DNA from: Desulfobacca sp.
GTDB lineage: Bacteria > Desulfobacterota > Desulfobaccia > Desulfobaccales > Desulfobaccaceae
NCBI GenBank assembly: GCA_020725545.1
Contig: DYEV01000019.1
Span: forward strand, 124,001-188,000
Direction of reading: 5' to 3'
Length of the DNA: 64,000 nt
Under the pieces are notes generated by a model, which saw nothing but the letters and a program-made list of their open reading frames with translations, was not told the DNA's origin and did not search any database. Position 1 is the stretch's first letter; each line of letters opens with the position of its first letter. A program made the position numbers and the translations under genes. Of the stretch, positions 19,372-57,662 are shown in pieces.

Positions 19372-20340
19372 TTAGCCTCGCTCAATGTGGCTAATAAGAA
19401 AGTTCTCCCAGGCCAGGGTGTCATCAGGGAAAGGCAGATGGCTGATATTTTCCAGGGGGATTTCGGCCCGGGCGCTGGAGGCATGACCGCCGGCGGAACC
19501 CAGGTGGCCAAAGGCCTTGGCAGCCAAGTGGCCGGCGTTTTTGCGAATGCCGTCATTCCGGAAAATGACGATAAGGCGATTTTCGTATATCCCTCCCACA
19601 AAGCTCCAGGTAATTTCGATCACCCGCAGGAAAAATTCCGCCAAAATCACCAAAATATCAGGATTGGGCACCCGGCCGACATAACAATAGATCCGCTCCC
19701 GACGTCTCTGCTGCCGGTTGAGCCCCAGTTGGAAATAGTGCAACATTTCCAGGGTCAATTCGGCGATTTCAATGCGGCGCAAGAGGGGGTGGCGAGCATA
19801 ACGGAAGAGGTAATGGAAAGCCCGGATGTCTGCTTCGATGGTAGGACGCTCAAAATTATGGGTGTCCGTTTTAATGGCATAGGAAAGGGCGGTGGCCAAT
19901 TTCATGGAGGGTTTGATTTTGGCCTGCCGCAGGTATTCCGTCATGATGGTGGAGTTGGAACCGTAGCCAGCCCGAACATCCAGGAAGGGAGCGCGGCTTT
20001 GAGGCAGCAAAGGATGATGGTCGATAATGACATCGAAGGTGAAATCGGCAAAAAGGGGATTATGGCCAGGCTGCGAGTCGACCAAGGCAAAACGGTTGAA
20101 ATCCGCGCGATTTATCTGGTCGAATGGGGTCAGAGGAATTTCTAACAACCTGACCATGGTCTGGTTCTGGGGGCGGGTGATGGCCCGGATGGGAGAGATA
20201 GTACAGGTAGAGAACCGCCGCCAGAGGAGCCTTTTCAAGGCCAGGGCGCTGGCGATGGAATCGGGATCAGCGTCAATGAGGATGAGCAGGCGGTCTTGAT
20301 GGTTGAAGAGCTGCCGCAGTTTCCGTAAGCGATCTCTCAT
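19372..20340 (-). CDS. DHH-family phosphoesterase (NrnA-like)
   Basis: A 322-residue cytoplasmic protein with a DHH domain and a DHHA1 C-terminal domain. Metal-binding motifs are IDADPDSIASALAL, FALVDSQPG and VIIDHHPLL. The DHHA1 substrate motif is GSAGGHASSARAEIP. Relatives degrade very short RNAs (nanoRNAs), pAp, or cyclic-di-nucleotide products such as pApA. The last is of interest because a c-di-AMP-synthase-like gene lies at 42811-44376, but the substrate cannot be assigned from sequence alone. Confidence 0.88.
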   Translation of the reverse strand: MRDRLRKLRQLFNHQDRLLILIDADPDSIASALALKRLLWRRFSTCTISPIRAITRPQNQTMVRLLEIPLTPFDQINRADFNRFALVDSQPGHNPLFADFTFDVIIDHHPLLPQSRAPFLDVRAGYGSNSTIMTEYLRQAKIKPSMKLATALSYAIKTDTHNFERPTIEADIRAFHYLFRYARHPLLRRIEIAELTLEMLHYFQLGLNRQQRRRERIYCYVGRVPNPDILVILAEFFLRVIEITWSFVGGIYENRLIVIFRNDGIRKNAGHLAAKAFGHLGSAGGHASSARAEIPLENISHLPFPDDTLAWENFLISHIERG

Positions 20341-42810: not shown

Positions 42811-44376
42811 CTAATATAAGCGGCTGATCAGTCTGCCGGTACGGTACAGGGAGATGGGCCCATCCATGGAGATGCAGATGCCCAGGACATTGGGATAATA
42901 GGCGGTGATTTCCCGGGTTGCCTGGTGGCGGGTGCCGCTGCCCAATTCATCACCGGCCAGCGGCGGCAACTGCAGGCCGGTGGCTTTCAGGCGGGCGCCG
43001 AAATGGGTCACTGACAGCTTTTCATTTACGATGACGGCGCCGTCGGGTTTGGCCAGCCCCAGGAGAATGGCGCTCCGACGCTGGTCCAGAGGCGCGGGTT
43101 GGGCCAGCCGCACTTCGTTTTCAATGGGGACAAAGGGCTCCTGGAGCTTGGCAGCGCTCAGTCCCACCAGGACAATGCCTCCCCGGGCATTGGCCCGCAT
43201 GCCCCGGAAAAGATTCCGCAACTGCTGCAACGCTTCGGCATGGTTGCCTGCCGGACAGATGCTGCGCAATTGGCGCTCCAGTTCCTGCCAAAAGACGTCC
43301 TGAAACAGAGGGATTTGCAGACGGCCGTGCCGGTATTCCAACAACGAGAGGGGAATCCGTTTGTTTTGCCGGCCTTTCAGAGCCAGCCAAAAATTAAACC
43401 GGCCCCGGCGGGAGATGGTAGCCAGGGGTAGGGACTCCCGCCAGGCCCGGACTGTGATCAACTGGCGTTGAGTGCCTTCGGGGAGATGGAGGATCCCGAC
43501 GATCCGATTGTGATGCGCCGCCAGGAAGGTGGTGCGGCCATCTGCATTAAGCAAGAGCTGTTTAATGGGTTCCAGCCCCTCGGTTAACAACGGCCTTTGG
43601 GATTCGTGATACAAAAACAGGTTGGGCCAACGACTCTGTTGTTCCGCCAACGATTTGTCAGGGGACAGGAAGGCGAAGCCGGTGAAAAGACGTTCGCCCT
43701 CAATGGTATAATAAAGAAGCTGTTTAAAGAGACGCACGCCGCGGATCAAGGCCTCCTCGGCGCTGCTCCCGGGTATCTCGCAGCGTTTCAGATCCGCCGG
43801 TGTGTACAACCGGGTGCCGATATACGGCGTATCCTGGGCATCCAACTTCACCGTGGCGCAGGGAATCCAGACCAAGGACTGCAAGTAGCGCGCAATCACC
43901 TGTTCTTCCAGGGAGTAGGGCGCAAAGGCCAAAAAATCCTGCTGGACCACCCCGGCATGGATGGCAAGAACATAGAACCAGGCCAGCCCGAAGAGAATGC
44001 TGATAAAACGACAATGAAAGGGCGATAATAAAAACGAGGACTGGGAAGTGCTGAGTTTAAAATAATCGACTTCCTCCCCTAATTGTAATCTGATCAGGTG
44101 AAAGAGGGAACCGCTCGCCGTATCTTCCTGGTTGGGAAAAAGCGTGCCCTGAATCACCAACTTATGCCGTCGGGTATGAACCGCCAAAAAAGGGAACAAT
44201 TCGACCCCGACTTTGGGATGGGGTACCTCCCAGCCATGAAACGCCTCCAACTCCCGGCTTAAGGTGCAGGTGGTGATGTCCTCCAAGAGGCGGTTCAGCT
44301 CAGTGGAAGCAATCAGGGCCAGGTAACTCTGGCGCAATTGCACCAGATCAATGGCTTTAGTTGAAAAGCGGGGCAT
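42811..44376 (-). CDS. diadenylate-cyclase (DAC/DisA_N) domain protein with large sensor-like N-terminus
   Basis: A 521-residue protein. The last 130 or so residues match a DAC domain that makes cyclic di-AMP: RRSAILLGLAKPDGAVIVNEK (the DGA motif) and LGSGTRHQATREITAYYP in place of the usual GTRHRAA. The end reads LGICISMDGPISLYRTGRL. The N-terminal 380 residues are not recognised and contain one hydrophobic stretch (FISILFGLAWFYVLAIHAGVV). DAC proteins with unusual N-terminal domains are known in deltaproteobacteria. The Arg-to-Gln change in RHR could lower or alter activity. The start is the ATG at 44376, and a TTG six bases earlier is possible. Confidence 0.8.
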   Translation of the reverse strand: MPRFSTKAIDLVQLRQSYLALIASTELNRLLEDITTCTLSRELEAFHGWEVPHPKVGVELFPFLAVHTRRHKLVIQGTLFPNQEDTASGSLFHLIRLQLGEEVDYFKLSTSQSSFLLSPFHCRFISILFGLAWFYVLAIHAGVVQQDFLAFAPYSLEEQVIARYLQSLVWIPCATVKLDAQDTPYIGTRLYTPADLKRCEIPGSSAEEALIRGVRLFKQLLYYTIEGERLFTGFAFLSPDKSLAEQQSRWPNLFLYHESQRPLLTEGLEPIKQLLLNADGRTTFLAAHHNRIVGILHLPEGTQRQLITVRAWRESLPLATISRRGRFNFWLALKGRQNKRIPLSLLEYRHGRLQIPLFQDVFWQELERQLRSICPAGNHAEALQQLRNLFRGMRANARGGIVLVGLSAAKLQEPFVPIENEVRLAQPAPLDQRRSAILLGLAKPDGAVIVNEKLSVTHFGARLKATGLQLPPLAGDELGSGTRHQATREITAYYPNVLGICISMDGPISLYRTGRLISRLY

Positions 44377-44748
44377 GGTCAAGGTTCTCTTGTTGGGATA
44401 TTCTCTTTTATTGAGCTTTATTACTCATGGTCATTAGTTGGATAAATCACTTGCGAACCGGGAAAATTCATCCTTACTGCAAATGGCTGGCGTGGACGGG
44501 CCCGGCAATCCGCCCCACTAACTGACTACTGACAACTGGTAACCGCCCGTCTTTTTCTTCTCGGCATTGCCGGCCGTCTGGGGTTATGGTTTTGGTGGAA
44601 TGCTGGTATAATAAAAATAAGAACGGTATAGCCATTCCCGATGGTATTGGCTATTATATCCCAGGATCATAAAAAAGTTAAGTCAGATGAACCTTGACGG
44701 TGTTAACTAAGGTGGCAGTCGCGCCTAGCAGCGAGCTGGCCCCCCCAC
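44377..44748. other. gene-free spacer between divergent signalling genes
   Basis: No gene. It contains a GTGG...CCAC-flanked GC hairpin at 44492-44518 and a TATAAT at 44607-44612. A repeated GGTAT-GCCATTCCCGATGGTAT-like inverted text follows near 44635-44650. It should carry the promoters of both flanking genes. Confidence 0.5.
44607..44612 (+). promoter_or_regulatory. possible -10 element upstream of the Cache kinase
   Basis: A perfect TATAAT lies in AT-rich DNA about 140 bases upstream of the kinase. The -35 position holds only a weak TTATGG. Confidence 0.35.
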
Positions 44749-50604: not shown

Positions 50605-53600
50605 ATGAGTGCTCAGTCCGACAATGACAACCTCCAGCCCTCCCCCCCTGCTTTGCAGGGGGAACGGCCTGGCATTGCTAAGAGCAGCCCTCCCCGGCAG
50701 CTTTACCGCCTCCTATTCAACGCGGTCAATGACGCCATTATCCTGGTGGACGCGCAGACCGGGACCTTGGTCACCGTCAATGATACCTTCTGTCAGATGA
50801 CCGGCTTTAGCCGCCAGGAAGCCAAGGGTCTATCCATCGAAGAGCTTTTTGCCGGCACCCCTCCGAATACCATGCAGGCAGCCAGGGAGGGTATCCGCCG
50901 CGCCGTGGCAGAAGGCCCGCAACTTTTTGAATGGCAGGCCCAGGATCGGCATGGCCGGCGGCATTGGGTCGAAATGAATCTGAAAGCCTTGCCGCTGGGC
51001 CGCAAGACGTATGTCCTGGGGACCATCCGAGATATTCAGGCCCGCAAGGAGATGGAGGGCAAAGTCCAGCAGGGTGAGGGCGCCATGATGGCCCTGTTGG
51101 ATGCCCTGCAGGATGTGGCCCTGCTGCTGGACCCCAACGGCGTCATTCTCGCCGCCAACCAGACAGCCAGAAATCGCCTGCAGTCCTCGGCAGGTGATTG
51201 CTTGGGCCGCAATGTATTTGATCTTTTGCCGCCGTCGGTGGCCGAGAATCGAAAGGCTCAGGCCGAGGCGGTCTTCCGGACCGGCAAGGCGGCCCATTTT
51301 GAAGATGAGAATGCCGGCCAGCATTTCCTCAATATGCTCTACCCTATTTTTGACTCCCAGGGTCAGGTAAGCCAGTTAGGCATCTATGCCATGGACGTCA
51401 CCGAGGCCCGGAAAATGCAGCGGGAGTTGGCCAAAACCAAAAGCCGCCTGCAGTGTCTGCTGGATCATGTGCCGGTGGCCCTGTATGGTTGTCACCCCGA
51501 GGATTTCGGACATCTGACCTATCTCAGCAAGAGCATCTCCCGGCTGACCGGCTTCACCCCTGAGGAGCTTTTAGCCGATCCCTTCTTCTGGAACCAGCGC
51601 ATCCATCCCGAGGACCGACACCTTCTCCAGCAGCGCCGCCAGGAAGGTCATGGATCAGAACCCCTATCTTTGGAATATCGTTTCCGCCACAAAAACGGCA
51701 CGTATCTCTGGCTCCACGATGAATTTGCCCTGGTCCGCGACCAGCAGGATCAACCGTTGGAATATATCGGCTCCCTGCTTGATGTTACTACGACCAAAGA
51801 GGCCCAGGAAAAATTGGCCCGGAGCGAAGCCCGCTACCGGGCCATTGTCGAGTGTCAGAACGATTTGATCTGTCGGTTCACTCCTGAAACTACTCTGGTG
51901 TATGTCAACGAGGCCGTCTGCCGCTTTCTGCAACAAACCCGGGAAGCTCTCCTCGGTACCGCCGTTGCAGCTTTCCTCAGTAACGGCGATCAGCAGAACC
52001 TCATGGCTTGGCTTGCCACCTTGAGCCCCGATCGCCCGGTGGCCCACCGGGAATATCAGGTCTTCCTGCCCGATGGCTCCCGGCGGTGGCTGTCCTGGAT
52101 GGTTTATGCCTTCTTTGACGACCGGGAGCAGGTGCAAGAGTTTCAGGCCGTCGGCCGGGATATCACTGAACGGGTGACTGCCGAAAAGGCCTTGCGCCAG
52201 AGCGAACAACGCTTCCGCACCTATGCGGAAAACTCCCTGGTAGGCGTGTTGGTCCTCCAGGATCAGCGCCTGCGCTATGTCAACCCGGCCCTGGCCCGGA
52301 TGTTTGGCTATGAGCCTGCCGAATTGATCGATGTCATCGATGTCATGGAGTTGGTCCACCCTGACTATCAGGATTTATTGCGGAAGAAGATCAGAGCGAG
52401 GTTGGCCGGCGCCCCCCCAGAGCAGTATACCATTCAGGGCCGCCGCCGGGATGGCCGCGTGATTTACTGCGAATTGACCGGCAGCCTCATCGACTTCCAA
52501 CATCGACCGGCGATCTTGGCGACCGTCATTGATATGACCCAGCGTTGGGAAGCTGAGGCGGCGCTCCGGGCCAGCGAAGAAAAGTTCCGCTACCTCGTGG
52601 AAAAGATGAACGATGGCCTGGGAATCTGTGATGCGGAACAGCGCATCGTGTATGTCAACCCCCGGTTTTGCGAGCTCGTCGGCTACTCGGAAGTGGAGTT
52701 GCTGGGGCTGCCGCTGACCAAGTTGTTGGACGAAGCGAATCAACAGATCTTTACCGAACAGTTTGCCCGTCGACAAGCCGGGGCAGAGGCTCCTTACCAA
52801 CTGTCCTGGACCCGGAAGGACGGCACCCAGGTGCCCACCCTGATTTCCCCCCGACCGTTGTTTGATGAGAACGGCCGCTTCCAGGGCAGCTTCGCCATCA
52901 TGACGGATATCACCGTTTACCGTCAGGCGGAAGCCGCCCTGCAGCGCCGGGAACAATATTTCCGCCAGCTCACGGAAAATGTCTCCGACGTCATCGGCCT
53001 GCTCACGACCGATGGTCTGATCAAATACCTCAATCCGACGGTGGCCCGGCTGCTGGGTTTCACCTCTCAGGAATTACAGGGTACCTCATTTTTCAATCTG
53101 GTGCATCCCGCGGAAGTGGATACCTTGCGCCGGCGCTTTCAAGGGCAGCTGCAGCAGGCCGAAGAAGATTTCAGCGCCATTGTCCAGGTGCGGCATCAGA
53201 ATGGCACCTGGCATATCTGGCAGATAAAGGGGAAAAATCTCCTGGATGATCCCATAGTCGCCGGGATTGTTATCAATGCCCAGGATGTTACCGAGCAGAA
53301 GAAGTTGGAGGAAGCCCTGCAGCAGTCCGCCAAAAAACTGCGAGCCCTGACAACCCAGATCTTTGCCGCCCAGGAGACCGAGCGCCGGCGCTTGTCCCTG
53401 GAGCTCCATGACGAATTGGGCCAATCCCTCACCGTCCTGAAGCTGCAGCTCCGCGCCATTGCCAATAAGTTGCGCAAAGATCAGACGCAATTGAAAGAGG
53501 AATGCTCCCAGATGTTGGCGTACATCAATGGCGTGGTGGAGAACGTCCGGCGTCTCTCCCATGACCTCTGTCCCTCGTTGTTGGAAAACGTCGGCTTGGG

Positions 53601-54018
53601 CGCGGCCTTGCGCCACCTGTTGGAAAATTTCCAGCAGTTCTACCAAGTCACCGAAAACCTCAAGGAACTGGACAATTTTGAAGCAATCCTGCCCGCCGCC
53701 GCCAAAATCCACCTCTACCGCATTTTCCAGGAACTCTTTACCAACATTGATAAACATTCCCAAGCCAGCGCCATCCGAGTGGAGGTGCAGCAGGTAAACA
53801 ACCGCCTGTCAATTACCATTGCCGATAACGGTCGGGGTTTCCCAACCGGGGAGGGCGACCTCAAACTCGGTCAGACCGGGCTCGGCCTGTCAGCTATCAG
53901 TGAGCGGATCCTCATGCTCGGCGGCACCCTGGATATACAAAACCAAGAACAAGGCGGCACTCGCATACATTTTACGGTGCCTCTCCAGAAAAAATCTTTA
54001 AATAAAAAGAAAGGATAA
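50605..54018 (+). CDS. soluble seven-PAS sensor histidine kinase (NarX/DegS-type catalytic core)
   Basis: A 1137-residue protein without membrane helices. Seven PAS-type units are visible, starting near LYRLLFNAVNDAIILVD, LLDALQDVALLLD, LLDHVPVALYG, YRAIVECQNDLICRF, FRTYAENSLVGVLVL, FRYLVEKMNDGLGIC and YFRQLTENVSDVIGLL. The catalytic end is HisKA_3 (ERRRLSLELHDELGQSLTVLK, His present) plus HATPase (ADNGRGFP; GQTGLGLSAISER). This core normally pairs with LuxR-type regulators, and exactly such a gene starts six bases after the stop. The ATG at 50605 has no strong ribosome binding site. Confidence 0.93.
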   Translation: MSAQSDNDNLQPSPPALQGERPGIAKSSPPRQLYRLLFNAVNDAIILVDAQTGTLVTVNDTFCQMTGFSRQEAKGLSIEELFAGTPPNTMQAAREGIRRAVAEGPQLFEWQAQDRHGRRHWVEMNLKALPLGRKTYVLGTIRDIQARKEMEGKVQQGEGAMMALLDALQDVALLLDPNGVILAANQTARNRLQSSAGDCLGRNVFDLLPPSVAENRKAQAEAVFRTGKAAHFEDENAGQHFLNMLYPIFDSQGQVSQLGIYAMDVTEARKMQRELAKTKSRLQCLLDHVPVALYGCHPEDFGHLTYLSKSISRLTGFTPEELLADPFFWNQRIHPEDRHLLQQRRQEGHGSEPLSLEYRFRHKNGTYLWLHDEFALVRDQQDQPLEYIGSLLDVTTTKEAQEKLARSEARYRAIVECQNDLICRFTPETTLVYVNEAVCRFLQQTREALLGTAVAAFLSNGDQQNLMAWLATLSPDRPVAHREYQVFLPDGSRRWLSWMVYAFFDDREQVQEFQAVGRDITERVTAEKALRQSEQRFRTYAENSLVGVLVLQDQRLRYVNPALARMFGYEPAELIDVIDVMELVHPDYQDLLRKKIRARLAGAPPEQYTIQGRRRDGRVIYCELTGSLIDFQHRPAILATVIDMTQRWEAEAALRASEEKFRYLVEKMNDGLGICDAEQRIVYVNPRFCELVGYSEVELLGLPLTKLLDEANQQIFTEQFARRQAGAEAPYQLSWTRKDGTQVPTLISPRPLFDENGRFQGSFAIMTDITVYRQAEAALQRREQYFRQLTENVSDVIGLLTTDGLIKYLNPTVARLLGFTSQELQGTSFFNLVHPAEVDTLRRRFQGQLQQAEEDFSAIVQVRHQNGTWHIWQIKGKNLLDDPIVAGIVINAQDVTEQKKLEEALQQSAKKLRALTTQIFAAQETERRRLSLELHDELGQSLTVLKLQLRAIANKLRKDQTQLKEECSQMLAYINGVVENVRRLSHDLCPSLLENVGLGAALRHLLENFQQFYQVTENLKELDNFEAILPAAAKIHLYRIFQELFTNIDKHSQASAIRVEVQQVNNRLSITIADNGRGFPTGEGDLKLGQTGLGLSAISERILMLGGTLDIQNQEQGGTRIHFTVPLQKKSLNKKKG

Positions 54019-54024
54019 ATCGAC

Positions 54025-54699
54025 ATGCGTCCCTACACGGTGGTGATTGCTGATGATCACGTCATGTTTCGACAGGGGTTGAAGAAGATTATCGATGCCA
54101 ATCCGGCTTATAGCATCGTGGGTGAGGCCAGCACCGGAGCGGAACTCTTGGAGCTCCTCAAAAAGACCACCCCTGATCTCGTCCTACTGGACATCTCCAT
54201 GCCCCAACTGCAGGGTTTGGACGCGGCCAAAGAGATAAAAAAGCGTTATCCCAAAGTCAAGATCCTTATCCTGACCATGCACAAGAGCAATGAATATCTG
54301 AATTATGCCCTCAGCATCGGTGCTGATGGCTATCTCCTCAAAGAGGATGCCGACTCAGAACTGTTTTCGGCCATCGACACAGTCCGCCACCACGGCGTCT
54401 ATATTTCGCCGCTCCTCTCCCCCCAACTCAAGGACCTGCTCCTCCGCAAATACCGTGAAGAGCGCAGCCAGGTCCCAGAGGACCCTTTGACCAAACGGGA
54501 AAAAGAGATCCTGCGCCACATTGCTGAAGGAAAATCCAGCCGGGAGATCGGCGCCCTTTTGGATATCAGCTCCCGCACTGTGGAACATCATCGGGCCAAT
54601 ATGATGCGCAAATTAGGCTGCCGCAAGATCGCCGAATTAGTGCGCTATGCTATCCAAAAAGGCTACACCGCGGACCAAGTTTTTCCCATCATGCCCTAA
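54025..54699 (+). CDS. LuxR/NarL-family response regulator
   Basis: A 224-residue DNA-binding regulator. The receiver has IADDHVMFRQGLKK, phospho-Asp56 in LVLLDISMP, Thr in LTMHKSNEY and Lys in YLLKED. The C-terminal LuxR helix-turn-helix reads LTKREKEILRHIAEGKSSRE and SSRTVEHHRANMMRKLG. AAGAAAGGATAAAT lies before the ATG. It is coupled to the seven-PAS kinase upstream, and its targets are unknown. Confidence 0.95.
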   Translation: MRPYTVVIADDHVMFRQGLKKIIDANPAYSIVGEASTGAELLELLKKTTPDLVLLDISMPQLQGLDAAKEIKKRYPKVKILILTMHKSNEYLNYALSIGADGYLLKEDADSELFSAIDTVRHHGVYISPLLSPQLKDLLLRKYREERSQVPEDPLTKREKEILRHIAEGKSSREIGALLDISSRTVEHHRANMMRKLGCRKIAELVRYAIQKGYTADQVFPIMP

Positions 54700-55039
54700 C
54701 CTGGGAGCTCAATATACCAGCCGGCCAGAGGTGCGGCTCCAGATGGTTTGTCGGGATGTTCAAAGGAAGCAACCGCCTGGCTGACGGGGCGCAGTTGCAA
54801 CCACACCGGAAGGAAGGGGGTTCGGGGGACGATAGAAAATAATATTTTTTTACAATTTTAAGTCTATATACCTATAAATTAGGAAGTTGTAACGATTGCC
54901 AAATAGATTTTGCACGTTTATCATTATTATGTAAAAAACGATCCTAAGAAAGGATCATTCTGCTCCAGAACGGTGGTGATTGAGGTGTGGCCATCATCGC
55001 CGGCTTGGGCGGCAGAAAAAACGAGCAACGAGGTTTACT
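54700..55039. other. AT-rich spacer before the transposase-like gene
   Basis: No gene. The DNA at 54835-54935 is very AT-rich and is followed by a GATCCT-AAGAA-AGGATC hairpin (54940-54956). This may end the regulator transcript or mark an old insertion boundary. No matching inverted repeat was found on the far side of the transposase-like gene. Confidence 0.5.
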
Positions 55040-56764
55040 ATGGCTCATCTTCATAAAAAGGTCAAGAAAGATCACACCTATTATTATATTCGGGAGTCCC
55101 AGCGCATCAAAGGCCGGCCCACCATTGTCAATCAAGTGTATCTGGGCACGGCCGATAAGGTGCAGTCTCTCTTGGATTTCCCCGAAGGAAGTCTGCCGGA
55201 GGGTTTTTCTCCGAAGGAATATGGCTCTGTCTTTCTCATCAACGAATTAGACCAGGATATTGACCTGGCGGCCACGATCGATGAACTGCTGCCGCCGGGC
55301 AAAAAGATCCGAGGGCCGTCGTTGGGTGAGATCATTTTTTATGCTGCCATGAACCGCGCCATTGCTCCCACCAGCAAACGCAAGTTGGCGGCCTGGTATG
55401 AACAGACAGACATCCAACGCATCCGCCCGGTGCGACTGGTCTCCCTGAGCTCCCAGAATTTCTGGAACCATTGGGACCGCATCCGCACCCCGGAACTGGA
55501 GAAAATCAAGAACCGGTTTTTCAAAAAGATATTTTCTTTAACCGACCCGGCCGACAACGAACATCTGTTATTGGAGGCCAGTCTGTTGTTTCCGGCGCCG
55601 GTCAATGGCGCCGGCGCTCGCGGTTCGGCCAATCCGCCCAGATTGGCCAAACCGCCGCGGCGGGGCGTGAAAGTGGCCCTGTTGACTAACCAAAAGGGTA
55701 TTCCCGTTTATTATCAGGCGTATGACGAGGACGAACCGGTCGCCAAGTATTTCGATCAGATTCTCACCACGCTGTTGGGCAAGGTGACGACTTTGGGCGG
55801 GGTCTATCAGGACCTGACCATCCTCATGGGTCTCGGCATCAACAGCATGGCGCTGCGGGAAAAGATCGCCGGCAACGAGCAGGTGCATTACTTAGCGGCC
55901 GTGTCCCCCGATGCTTCGCCGGAACTCTTAGCCCTGCCCTTGTCCCGCTATCAGATTCTGCCTTGCCGGCACAATCAACGGCTGCAGGCCCAGGGTGAGT
56001 CGCACTACGGCATCCGTTATGCCGGCCCCCGTCAGACTGAGGCTGGGCAAGAGATCATTCTCTTTGATCCGGCCATGTTTAAGAAGGCAAAGCGGGAGCT
56101 GCGGGATAAGGTGCAAAAGTTGCGGCAAGACTTGATTGTCTGGCAGCGGGAACTACGCCAACGGCCCGCGGATATGTTTGCCACAGAAATTCAGAACCGT
56201 TTTGCCAACCGCTGCCAGGATCTGGGCTTGCCCCCCGACGTCATGGACCTTTCCTGCATCTGGGAGAACGGCAAGAACTTCGTGCAGATTCGCCTGAATC
56301 GTCGGTATTGTACCGACCTGCTCAAGAGGATGGGGAAGATTGTCATCCAAACTGACCGCCGGGATTGGTCGCCCGAGGCCTTCTGTGACCTGGCCGTGGA
56401 GCGGGGTCTGTTGGGCGACAGCCCCAACCGGCCGCAGACTATCTTTCAGTCGGCCCTGACGCCGCAATATCATTGGACCGATTCCAAGATCCCCATTCAC
56501 GTCTTTGTGTGCATGGTGGCCTTAACGTATCTCTGTTTCCTGAACAGCCGCCTGGCCGCCGCCGGTTTGCTCGTCAACGCCAAGGAAGCCATGGAAGAGA
56601 TGCGGGCTTTGAAAACAGCCATCTTCCTGCTTTCCGAGGATGCCAAACCACTGCGCCTCTTTGAAGAGCCCAGCGACCTGCAGTTGCAGATTATCGACGC
56701 CCTGGGGTATGAGATGGAAGAGGGCAGGCTGGTGCCGCAGCAGGCCGACGGCCCGGAACCATAA
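55040..56764 (+). CDS. IS1634/IS4-like transposase-derived protein, apparently without DDE residues
   Basis: A 574-residue protein. The N-terminus (KKDHTYYYIRESQRIKGRPT... VYLGTADKV) and the C-terminal YHWTDSKIPIHVFVCMVALTYL match IS1634-type transposases in layout. The catalytic positions look lost. The usual Asp-x-Thr segment reads LLLEASLLFPAP, the usual Asp-Arg-Gly segment reads LTILMGLGINS, and the usual IE-x-FR segment reads PQTIFQSALTPQ. The frame is nevertheless intact, with codons like its neighbours. It could be an inactive relic kept open by chance, or a domesticated protein. GAGG precedes the ATG at 55040, and no terminal inverted repeats were seen. Confidence 0.75.
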   Translation: MAHLHKKVKKDHTYYYIRESQRIKGRPTIVNQVYLGTADKVQSLLDFPEGSLPEGFSPKEYGSVFLINELDQDIDLAATIDELLPPGKKIRGPSLGEIIFYAAMNRAIAPTSKRKLAAWYEQTDIQRIRPVRLVSLSSQNFWNHWDRIRTPELEKIKNRFFKKIFSLTDPADNEHLLLEASLLFPAPVNGAGARGSANPPRLAKPPRRGVKVALLTNQKGIPVYYQAYDEDEPVAKYFDQILTTLLGKVTTLGGVYQDLTILMGLGINSMALREKIAGNEQVHYLAAVSPDASPELLALPLSRYQILPCRHNQRLQAQGESHYGIRYAGPRQTEAGQEIILFDPAMFKKAKRELRDKVQKLRQDLIVWQRELRQRPADMFATEIQNRFANRCQDLGLPPDVMDLSCIWENGKNFVQIRLNRRYCTDLLKRMGKIVIQTDRRDWSPEAFCDLAVERGLLGDSPNRPQTIFQSALTPQYHWTDSKIPIHVFVCMVALTYLCFLNSRLAAAGLLVNAKEAMEEMRALKTAIFLLSEDAKPLRLFEEPSDLQLQIIDALGYEMEEGRLVPQQADGPEP

Positions 56765-56789
56765 GCCGCAACAACTATTAAAAACACTG

Positions 56790-56813
56790 GGGGCGGGCTT
56801 TAAAGCCCGCCCC
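56790..56813. repeat. 24-bp perfect palindrome between convergent genes
   Basis: GGGGCGGGCTTTAAAGCCCGCCCC pairs perfectly (12 + 12) between the transposase-like gene and pstB1. It may act as a two-way terminator, although no T-run follows. It resembles the other GC hairpins of the window. Confidence 0.65.
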
Positions 56814-56894
56814 TGGTCAATCTGTTCCCTCTCTTGGCGCCCCCTGCCGTCTGATTTCTTTTTATGGCCGGCCACAAGGGCCACTTCTTCTTTT

Positions 56895-57662
56895 CTAGCC
56901 ATATTTCCCTGAAATATAATCCTCGGTCCGTTCGTCTCGCGGGCGAGTAAAGATGGCGGAGGTGGGCCCGAACTCCACCAGGTCGCCCAGGAGCATGAAA
57001 CCGGTGTCGCTGGAGACCCGGGCCGCTTGTTGCATGTTATGGGTGACGATGATGATGGTATAGGCCTTGGCCAGTTCCTGCATGAGATCCTCCAATTGCA
57101 ACGTGGCCAAGGGATCAAGGGCGGAGCAGGGTTCATCCATGAGCAGGATTTCCGGCTCCACGGCCAACAAGCGGGCGATGCAAAGGCGCTGCTGCTGTTC
57201 TTCGGTCAGACTCAGGGCTGACTGAGACAGCCGATCCTTGAGTTCGTCCCAGAGGTGGACCGCTTGCAGGGAGCGCACCAGGATTTCCTCCAATTGCTTT
57301 TTTCCCGGCCGGCCGTGCAGAGTTGGTCCGTAGACGATATTATCGTAAATGGATAAAGGGAAGGGGTTGGGCCGCTGAAAGACCATCCCCACCTTTTTCC
57401 GGAGCTGCATGAGGTTGGTCTCCCGATGGTAAATATTGTCGCCGTCGATGAGCACCTGGCCGGTAATGGAGACCCCGTCGATAAGGTCGTTCATGCGGTT
57501 CAGAACCCGCAGCAGGGTGGATTTGCCGCAGCCCGAGGGACCGATGAGGGCGGTGATCCGCTGTCGGGCAAAGGACACATTAATATTTTTCAGGGCATGA
57601 AATCTGCCATAATAGAGGTCCAGATGGCGGATGGTGATGATGTCGGTAGTCATAGGTGCCAA
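56895..57662 (-). CDS. pstB: phosphate ABC transporter ATPase PstB1 (degenerate signature motif)
   Basis: A 255-residue ATPase of the Pst phosphate importer. Walker A is LIGPSGCGKSTLLRVL, the Q-loop is VGMVFQRPNPFPLSIYDN, Walker B is ILLMDEPCSALDP and the H-loop is IIIVTHNMQQAARV, all canonical. The ABC signature reads SLTEEQQQRLC where PstB has GLSGGQQQRLC, so LSGGQ has become LTEEQ. This was checked at codon level (CTG ACC GAA GAA CAG). It is the last pst gene, separated from pstB2 by 327 bases that hold a mobile repeat. The start at 57662 could be three codons later. Confidence 0.95.
   Translation of the reverse strand: MAPMTTDIITIRHLDLYYGRFHALKNINVSFARQRITALIGPSGCGKSTLLRVLNRMNDLIDGVSITGQVLIDGDNIYHRETNLMQLRKKVGMVFQRPNPFPLSIYDNIVYGPTLHGRPGKKQLEEILVRSLQAVHLWDELKDRLSQSALSLTEEQQQRLCIARLLAVEPEILLMDEPCSALDPLATLQLEDLMQELAKAYTIIIVTHNMQQAARVSSDTGFMLLGDLVEFGPTSAIFTRPRDERTEDYISGKYG

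Follow-up and report, generated by a model that had tools for sequence, protein, structure and literature searches.

Described diadenylate cyclase (DAC) proteins with which the present locus can be compared are CdaA, which combines a CdaA_N domain (PF19293) with the DAC domain (PF02457), the DACND-DACNH-DAC proteins (PF21749, PF21750, PF02457) and the DACNV-DAC proteins (PF21751). For the DGA and RHR motifs of the DAC active site, mutational and structural data are given in the accessible text of four papers. In CdaA from Leptospira, the exchanges D172A and R203A, the latter concerning the first Arg of RHR, abolish activity; S222A retains some or all of it (PMC12974146). The replacement of RHR by AAA abolishes the activity of DacA from M. 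tuberculosis and of CdaS from B. thuringiensis (PMC3328451, PMC4568413), and the G73A exchange in the DGA motif leaves the M. tuberculosis enzyme active (PMC3328451). In DacA from S. aureus, the Thr preceding RHR contacts the phosphate backbone of the ligand (PMC6368335). A single substitution of the third RHR residue was not found in the accessible text of these four papers.

The gene studied here lies within a window, i.e. the whole stretch of 64,000 nucleotides that was analysed, from Desulfobacca sp. (contig DYEV01000019.1, positions 124,001 to 188,000). The encoded protein of 521 residues is most likely the second, signal-gated DAC-type protein of the cell. Its features are listed in Table 1. 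A preceding sequence-only reading had noted DAC-like C-terminal motifs at this position, and this observation was confirmed: the minus-strand ORF contains PDGAV and GTRHQAT in its C-terminus. A TTG codon at 44382 is also in frame with this ORF; the plus-strand frame of the same interval is not open and has stops inside. A chance ORF was ruled out by homologues, which are 72–94% identical within the genus and 51–59% identical in other genera of the order. The window protein and these homologues are referred to as the RHQ family below. No account of this family was found in the open-licence papers searched.

Table 1. Positions of the gene, its regions and motifs, and of features discussed in the text (window coordinates unless a contig or locus is named).
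Feature	Position	Strand	Basis or remark
Whole gene	42811..44376	minus	521-aa protein, ATG at 44376, stop 42811-42813; open frame and homologues
N-terminal region, residues 1-209	43750..44376	minus	without known domain; conserved blocks, e.g. LLSPFH, SLEE
Middle region, residues ~210-371	43264..43749	minus	possible DACN-type regulatory domain; crossed by the profile alignment to the other-order family
C-terminal DAC-type domain, residues 372-521	42814..43263	minus	PF02457 at residues 441-515 and profile-profile matches
DGA motif, residues 445-447	43036..43044	minus	sequence; 24/24 members covering the motif
RHQ (RHR replaced), residues 483-485	42922..42930	minus	sequence; 24/24 members covering the motif
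RF00379 riboswitches (L184-L186)	G000:C29:79650-79784, C29:77100-77236, C32:32684-32825		
Upstream deaminase-like gene	L096-L101, L103, L104, L106, L107, L109, L110, L112		loci with the gene

A DAC domain at the C-terminus

DAC (PF02457) was the sole Pfam family that matched the window protein at E ≤ 1 (hmmscan; E 4.8e-5, 23.4 bits, residues 441–515; curated cut-off 27 bits). The genome search gave a DAC score of 26.7 bits, flagged as 27 and hence over the cut-off together with its in-frame neighbours. A DAC match at E ≤ 1 was obtained for 18 of the 21 aligned family members, the window protein included. The profile search that had been suggested with the sequence-only reading thus yielded a DAC match, albeit one under the cut-off in hmmscan. 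As the only convincing family match, it supports, in combination with profile-profile alignments, the assignment of the C-terminus to the DAC superfamily, and the DAC identity of this domain is strong. The corresponding search with the DACN families was unsuccessful: PF21749, PF21750 and PF21751 matched none of the 21 members at E ≤ 1, which distinguishes the RHQ family from both the DACND-DACNH-DAC and the DACNV-DAC proteins. With CdaA the family shares the DAC domain, DGA, the first Arg and the His, but it differs in the missing CdaA_N match, in the lack of a His before DGA and in having RHQ for RHR. Membership in CdaA was rejected, because PF19293 gave no match at E ≤ 1 and Pro or Ser precedes DGA. 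Membership in DisA was likewise rejected; NF010009, the sole NCBIfam match, scored 12 bits (E 0.086) versus a cut-off of 201 bits. The link to the superfamily is based on profile matches and the alignment; it is the orthodox active site that fails.

A sequence match in the PDB was found neither for the window protein at E ≤ 1 nor for the family profile at E ≤ 10. For residues 372–521, an AF2 model computed with no template and from three sequences was of low confidence (pLDDT 48, pTM 0.55), and a full-length model from three sequences (pLDDT 45) was too poor for use. Applying Foldseek to the low-confidence C-terminal model (pLDDT 48), nothing was found in the PDB at E ≤ 0.001, and DAC was absent among 50 rows. 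After VIA re-alignment of the 439 best Foldseek chains to this model, the first 38 rows were all diadenylate cyclase entries, with Z values of 5.1–6.2, where the tool advises 8, rmsd values of 3.5–5.5 and 81–104 aligned residues. These entries comprise structures of CdaA, DacA, DacM/CdaM, CdaS and DisA; 2FB5 is named CdaS in the accessible text of PMC8573169. The first unrelated rows are proteasome subunits, starting at Z 4.8. The ranking is compatible with a DAC fold, at a level below the one that the tool calls safe.

The preceding N-terminal part, to which the sequence-only reading could assign no domain, has indeed no convincing Pfam match over about 370 residues in the 21 members at E ≤ 1. 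The only matches were GGDEF_2 in two members (best E 0.15) and DUF7843 in one (E 0.22). Invariant residues are spread along the whole protein in the 21 aligned members, and constraint thus extends to the N-terminal part. The one hydrophobic segment that had been noticed there does exist in the window protein (residues 125–143, Kyte-Doolittle mean 1.96), but it is weaker in the relatives. Calculated for 15 relatives, the highest 19-residue mean lies at 1.12–1.55, and the segment in question often contains Arg or His; no conserved membrane helix is apparent, and such a helix was rejected. The protein is probably soluble, with a presumably regulatory N-terminal part of about 370 residues and, at the C-terminus, a DAC domain of another lineage than that of CdaA.

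Active-site motif of the RHQ family

In all 24 members of the RHQ family that cover the motif, the window protein included, DGA is present and RHQ replaces RHR, with the first Arg and the His kept. (The window protein and 24 loci give 25 rows; L006 ends before the DAC part.) The altered motif proposed for a single protein is thus a fixed trait of the family. The residue before the first Arg is Met in 11, Ile in 10 and Thr in three of the 24 members, and those with Thr all belong to the genus of the window. DGA is preceded by Pro in the window protein and by Ser in the other 15 members tabulated; the CdaA-type His is absent. Where CdaA has a Glu pair after the Ser, the RHQ family has Gln, Met or Thr, followed by Asp.

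For comparison, 109 DAC domains were tabulated: 16 from the RHQ family, 51 from CdaA, 14 from DACNH and five from DACNV proteins, 20 from a DAC-like family of another order (see below), and three others. Left out were L089 and the near-duplicates L081, L092, L142 and L146. The scan required DG and then R or K with H, Y or F, and lineages without these would be missed. Asp and Gly of DGA occur in 109/109 domains and the first Arg in 108/109, the remaining one having a Lys. The neighbours of these residues vary by lineage. The first Arg is preceded by Thr in 50 of the 51 CdaA rows (which were selected for HDGA and RHR, so that their constancy is largely by construction), by Ala in 14/14 DACNH domains and by Gly in 20/20 domains of the other-order family. 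It is followed by His in the RHQ family, CdaA and DACNV, by Tyr or Phe in DACNH and by Thr in the other-order family. The third motif residue is Asn in all DACNH domains, so that DACND-DACNH-DAC proteins resemble the RHQ family in keeping DGA with a changed RHR, here R[YF]N (14/14 tabulated). In DACNV it is Arg (three), Asn (one) or Gln (one), and in the other-order family Thr (19) or Ala (one). RHQ is also present in one DACNV-DAC protein (L144:634-1836), whose genome belongs to another family of the phylum.

The sequence-only reading had ascribed contacts with the ATP phosphates to the altered Arg. Such a contact was not found in the accessible text of the cited work, according to which the first Arg is needed for activity (PMC12974146) and the Thr before the motif contacts the phosphate backbone of the ligand (PMC6368335). 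Two residues without which Leptospira CdaA is inactive (PMC12974146), namely the Asp of DGA and the first Arg, are kept in 24/24 members, as are Gly, Ala and His. Because of this conservation, we put the chances that the 521-residue protein still makes c-di-AMP at about even. Counting against synthesis are the changed RHR, the replaced Glu pair and the phosphate-contacting Thr, which is kept in only three of the 24 members. The sub-threshold Pfam score and the Foldseek result with the low-confidence model count on the same side. The main rival explanation is a pseudo-cyclase, since the second Arg of the motif is gone in 24/24 and the phosphate Thr in 21/24 members. The DAC fold would then bind ATP, ADP, AMP or c-di-AMP with no synthesis and would relay this to the N-terminal part; the protein would act alongside CdaA as a receptor for nucleotides or c-di-AMP. 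We regard such a loss of synthesis as a serious possibility with a somewhat less than even chance; pure binding does not obviously require DGA, the first Arg and the His, all of which are retained.

Distribution, relatives and gene neighbourhood

A search of 59 relatives, the own genome included, revealed homologues in 24 of them. A repeat over the 29 genomes of the order that were examined again gave 24, one of which has two copies; inheritance within the order looks vertical. The family was not found in the three genomes of one sister genus, which belongs to the same taxonomic family, and in the two genomes of one genus that belongs to the order's second family. Being missing from these five of 29 genomes, it is dispensable there, which also counts against synthesis. 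When 395 genomes sampled from the phylum were searched, 15 had a long match, all of them in the order, and no full-length match was obtained outside it; two further genomes match in the DAC part only. A related-loci search over genome contigs, a method that detects close relatives only, gave just two loci.

The DACND-DACNH-DAC proteins resemble the RHQ family in their architecture, with a non-membrane N-terminal part and a C-terminal DAC domain in frames of similar length (479–583 aa). The DAC parts align over 126 columns with a probability of 90.5 (RHQ-family residues 382–518). For three DACNV proteins, the DAC parts align over 78 columns with a probability of 91.9 (residues 435–513), and S-Q-D-G near the end is common to both groups, the Q being present in four of the five DACNV domains tabulated. 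Proteins of some 430 aa from another order (L152–L178, L180–L183; also L147 and L149) were reached by way of weak matches to the DAC-part profile (E 0.02 and 0.07). This other-order family likewise has a DAC-like C-terminus, the DAC parts alone being aligned over 86 columns with a probability of 93.5, and its last residues are similar. Pfam DAC matched L147 with E 1.1e-4, which is below the cut-off, and did not match L172 at E ≤ 0.001. In 20/20 of the members tabulated, out of 65 matches, DGA is changed to DG[ML] and GTRHR to GGGRT[TA]. The family is nevertheless present in 61 of the 117 genomes of its order that were searched, and it is perhaps a cyclase-derived receptor. That a site altered even further is found so widely favours a pseudo-cyclase also for the RHQ protein.

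The profile of the other-order family aligns to residues 210–520 of the RHQ family with its columns 207–516 (probability 80.9, E 1.3e-5). When the middle region was shuffled (40 times), the score of the full-length comparison stayed at 49.1 and therefore derives from the DAC part; the alignment shrank to a median of 72 versus 273 columns. When the DAC part was shuffled, the score was 19.5, and the median alignment still lay on the middle register (207–323 to 149–267). In comparisons of the middle regions, the real score was reached by 33/60 column shuffles for DACNH, by 8/60 for DACNV and by 5/60 for the other-order family. A relationship between the middle regions of the RHQ and the other-order families is suggestive only. 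In a DAC tree from a quick search (84 rows, 95 columns, including 16 RHQ-family rows and every second CdaA row, 26 in total), the RHQ family forms one separate clade (98), apart from DACND-DACNH-DAC, and the other-order family is joined with two odd proteins (97); the deep order is open, with long branches meeting. L179:910-2409, a protein of 500 aa with VDGA and GARSTA and no Pfam match at E ≤ 0.001, groups with the other-order family on a long branch.

In the window, genes for Hsp20 and Lon lie downstream of the gene on the same strand. A histidine kinase with a PAS and a sub-threshold Cache match is encoded divergently upstream, followed by a receiver protein and a PPDK-type enzyme. Within the window's genus, Hsp20 and Lon are found again at L093 (68 and 87% identical), one of 20 fetched regions, several of which are short contigs. 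The block 50605–57662 recurs beside the gene at L095, likewise of this genus (74–97% identical), without the intervening genes for the histidine kinase and the PPDK-type enzyme. Distant histidine-kinase-type proteins of L102, L105 and L111 are 25–30% identical to that of the window; in L102 and L105 their genes are located downstream of the gene and not divergently upstream. The neighbourhood is fluid, and nothing was found that ties the histidine kinase to the gene.

DAC proteins occur in defence: a DAC beside CBASS has been shown in the anti-phage system DS-2, according to the accessible text of PMC13092281. In the phylum of the window, a phosphoribosyltransferase-DAC fusion with RKE at the motif (L143:130-2726) is followed by a gene that matches PADLOC NDT_II-A with E 2e-50. 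NDT_II-A is a retron part, and the locus is perhaps a defence locus. That the RHQ protein is also part of an anti-phage system is highly improbable, given its seemingly vertical presence in most genomes of the order. It has no PADLOC match at E ≤ 0.01, and its neighbours in the window are those named above; on these two grounds, a defence role was rejected for lack of support.

In loci from the order's second family, the gene is preceded on the same strand by an amidohydrolase gene of the adenosine-type deaminase kind: of the 17 loci fetched, 15 have enough sequence to be informative, and 13 of these show it. For two of these proteins, the best NCBIfam matches, all under cut-off, include 5'-deoxyadenosine and SAH/methylthioadenosine deaminases. 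The two loci without the deaminase gene come from one genus, other loci of which possess it. Both this gene and the lineage-specific swaps around the first Arg could fit an active cyclase with an altered phosphate pocket, which would form a different cyclic or linear dinucleotide or use ADP or another purine nucleotide as substrate. We consider such a change of product or substrate improbable; no deaminase gene was detected in the stretches fetched for the four loci from the genus of the window, the window included.

c-di-AMP signalling and proposed function

The genome of the window contains an orthodox CdaA with CdaA_N (G000:C28), whose gene is adjoined by a YbbR (CdaR) gene. It furthermore contains three c-di-AMP riboswitches (RF00379) with scores of 94.3, 81.2 and 62.4 bits. 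Two of them are located at the start of genes for an AA_permease_2 (APC-type) protein and for K_trans, a Kup-type K+ transporter, with a TrkH gene next on. The third one precedes an ORF of 118 aa without a Pfam match at E ≤ 0.001. It follows from the CdaA-CdaR pair and the three riboswitches that c-di-AMP signalling exists without the 521-residue protein. The expectation that this signalling is less common in Gram-negative bacteria does not apply here, as DAC matches were found in 220 of the 247 sampled genomes of the phylum; an E. coli genome used as control gave no DAC match. c-di-AMP signalling is therefore normal in this group, and the RHQ protein is an addition to it. Since CdaA already covers c-di-AMP production, its presence counts against synthesis by the RHQ protein and speaks for a pseudo-cyclase. 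G012, a further genome from this order, encodes a DACNV protein (L151:113-1477) that has RHR and a weak DAC part, in addition to CdaA and an RHQ protein. The DHH protein of the window (19372–20340, minus strand), which the sequence-only reading had considered for c-di-AMP degradation, is a stand-alone domain (PF01368, 30.0 bits, cut-off 28.1). DHHA1 occurs at three places in the genome, none of them at this protein.

The best overall explanation, for which we see an even chance, is a second DAC that has N-terminal control and makes c-di-AMP. In its favour are the DAC assignment of the C-terminus by profiles and the VIA ranking, the conserved Asp and first Arg, the RHQ motif of the DACNV-type protein L144 and the use of c-di-AMP by this genome. 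The N-terminal part would read a signal and would thereby control the face-to-face pairing of two DAC domains. The paired domains would join two ATP molecules at the site in which Asp445-Gly446, Arg483 and His484 are retained, and the resulting c-di-AMP would add to the pool that is read by the riboswitches of the genome.

The RHQ family and the family with DG[ML] and GGGRT[TA] may also be stages of one line, leading from a signal-gated cyclase to a nucleotide or c-di-AMP receptor beside CdaA, although we regard this as rather unlikely. If true, the RHQ family would be a half-way state that retains the catalytic Asp and the first Arg, the contacts to phosphate having been dismantled. Such cyclase-derived receptors would have their counterpart in the degenerate GGDEF and EAL receptors of c-di-GMP. 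Work on c-di-AMP rests on a few DAC classes that have the RHR site. The RHQ class carries a fixed change of this site across most of an order, and the genome studied here possesses CdaA and c-di-AMP riboswitches besides. It bears either on the need for the third motif residue or on DAC folds that have turned into receptors; the latter, if true, would alter the reading of genomes with DAC matches.
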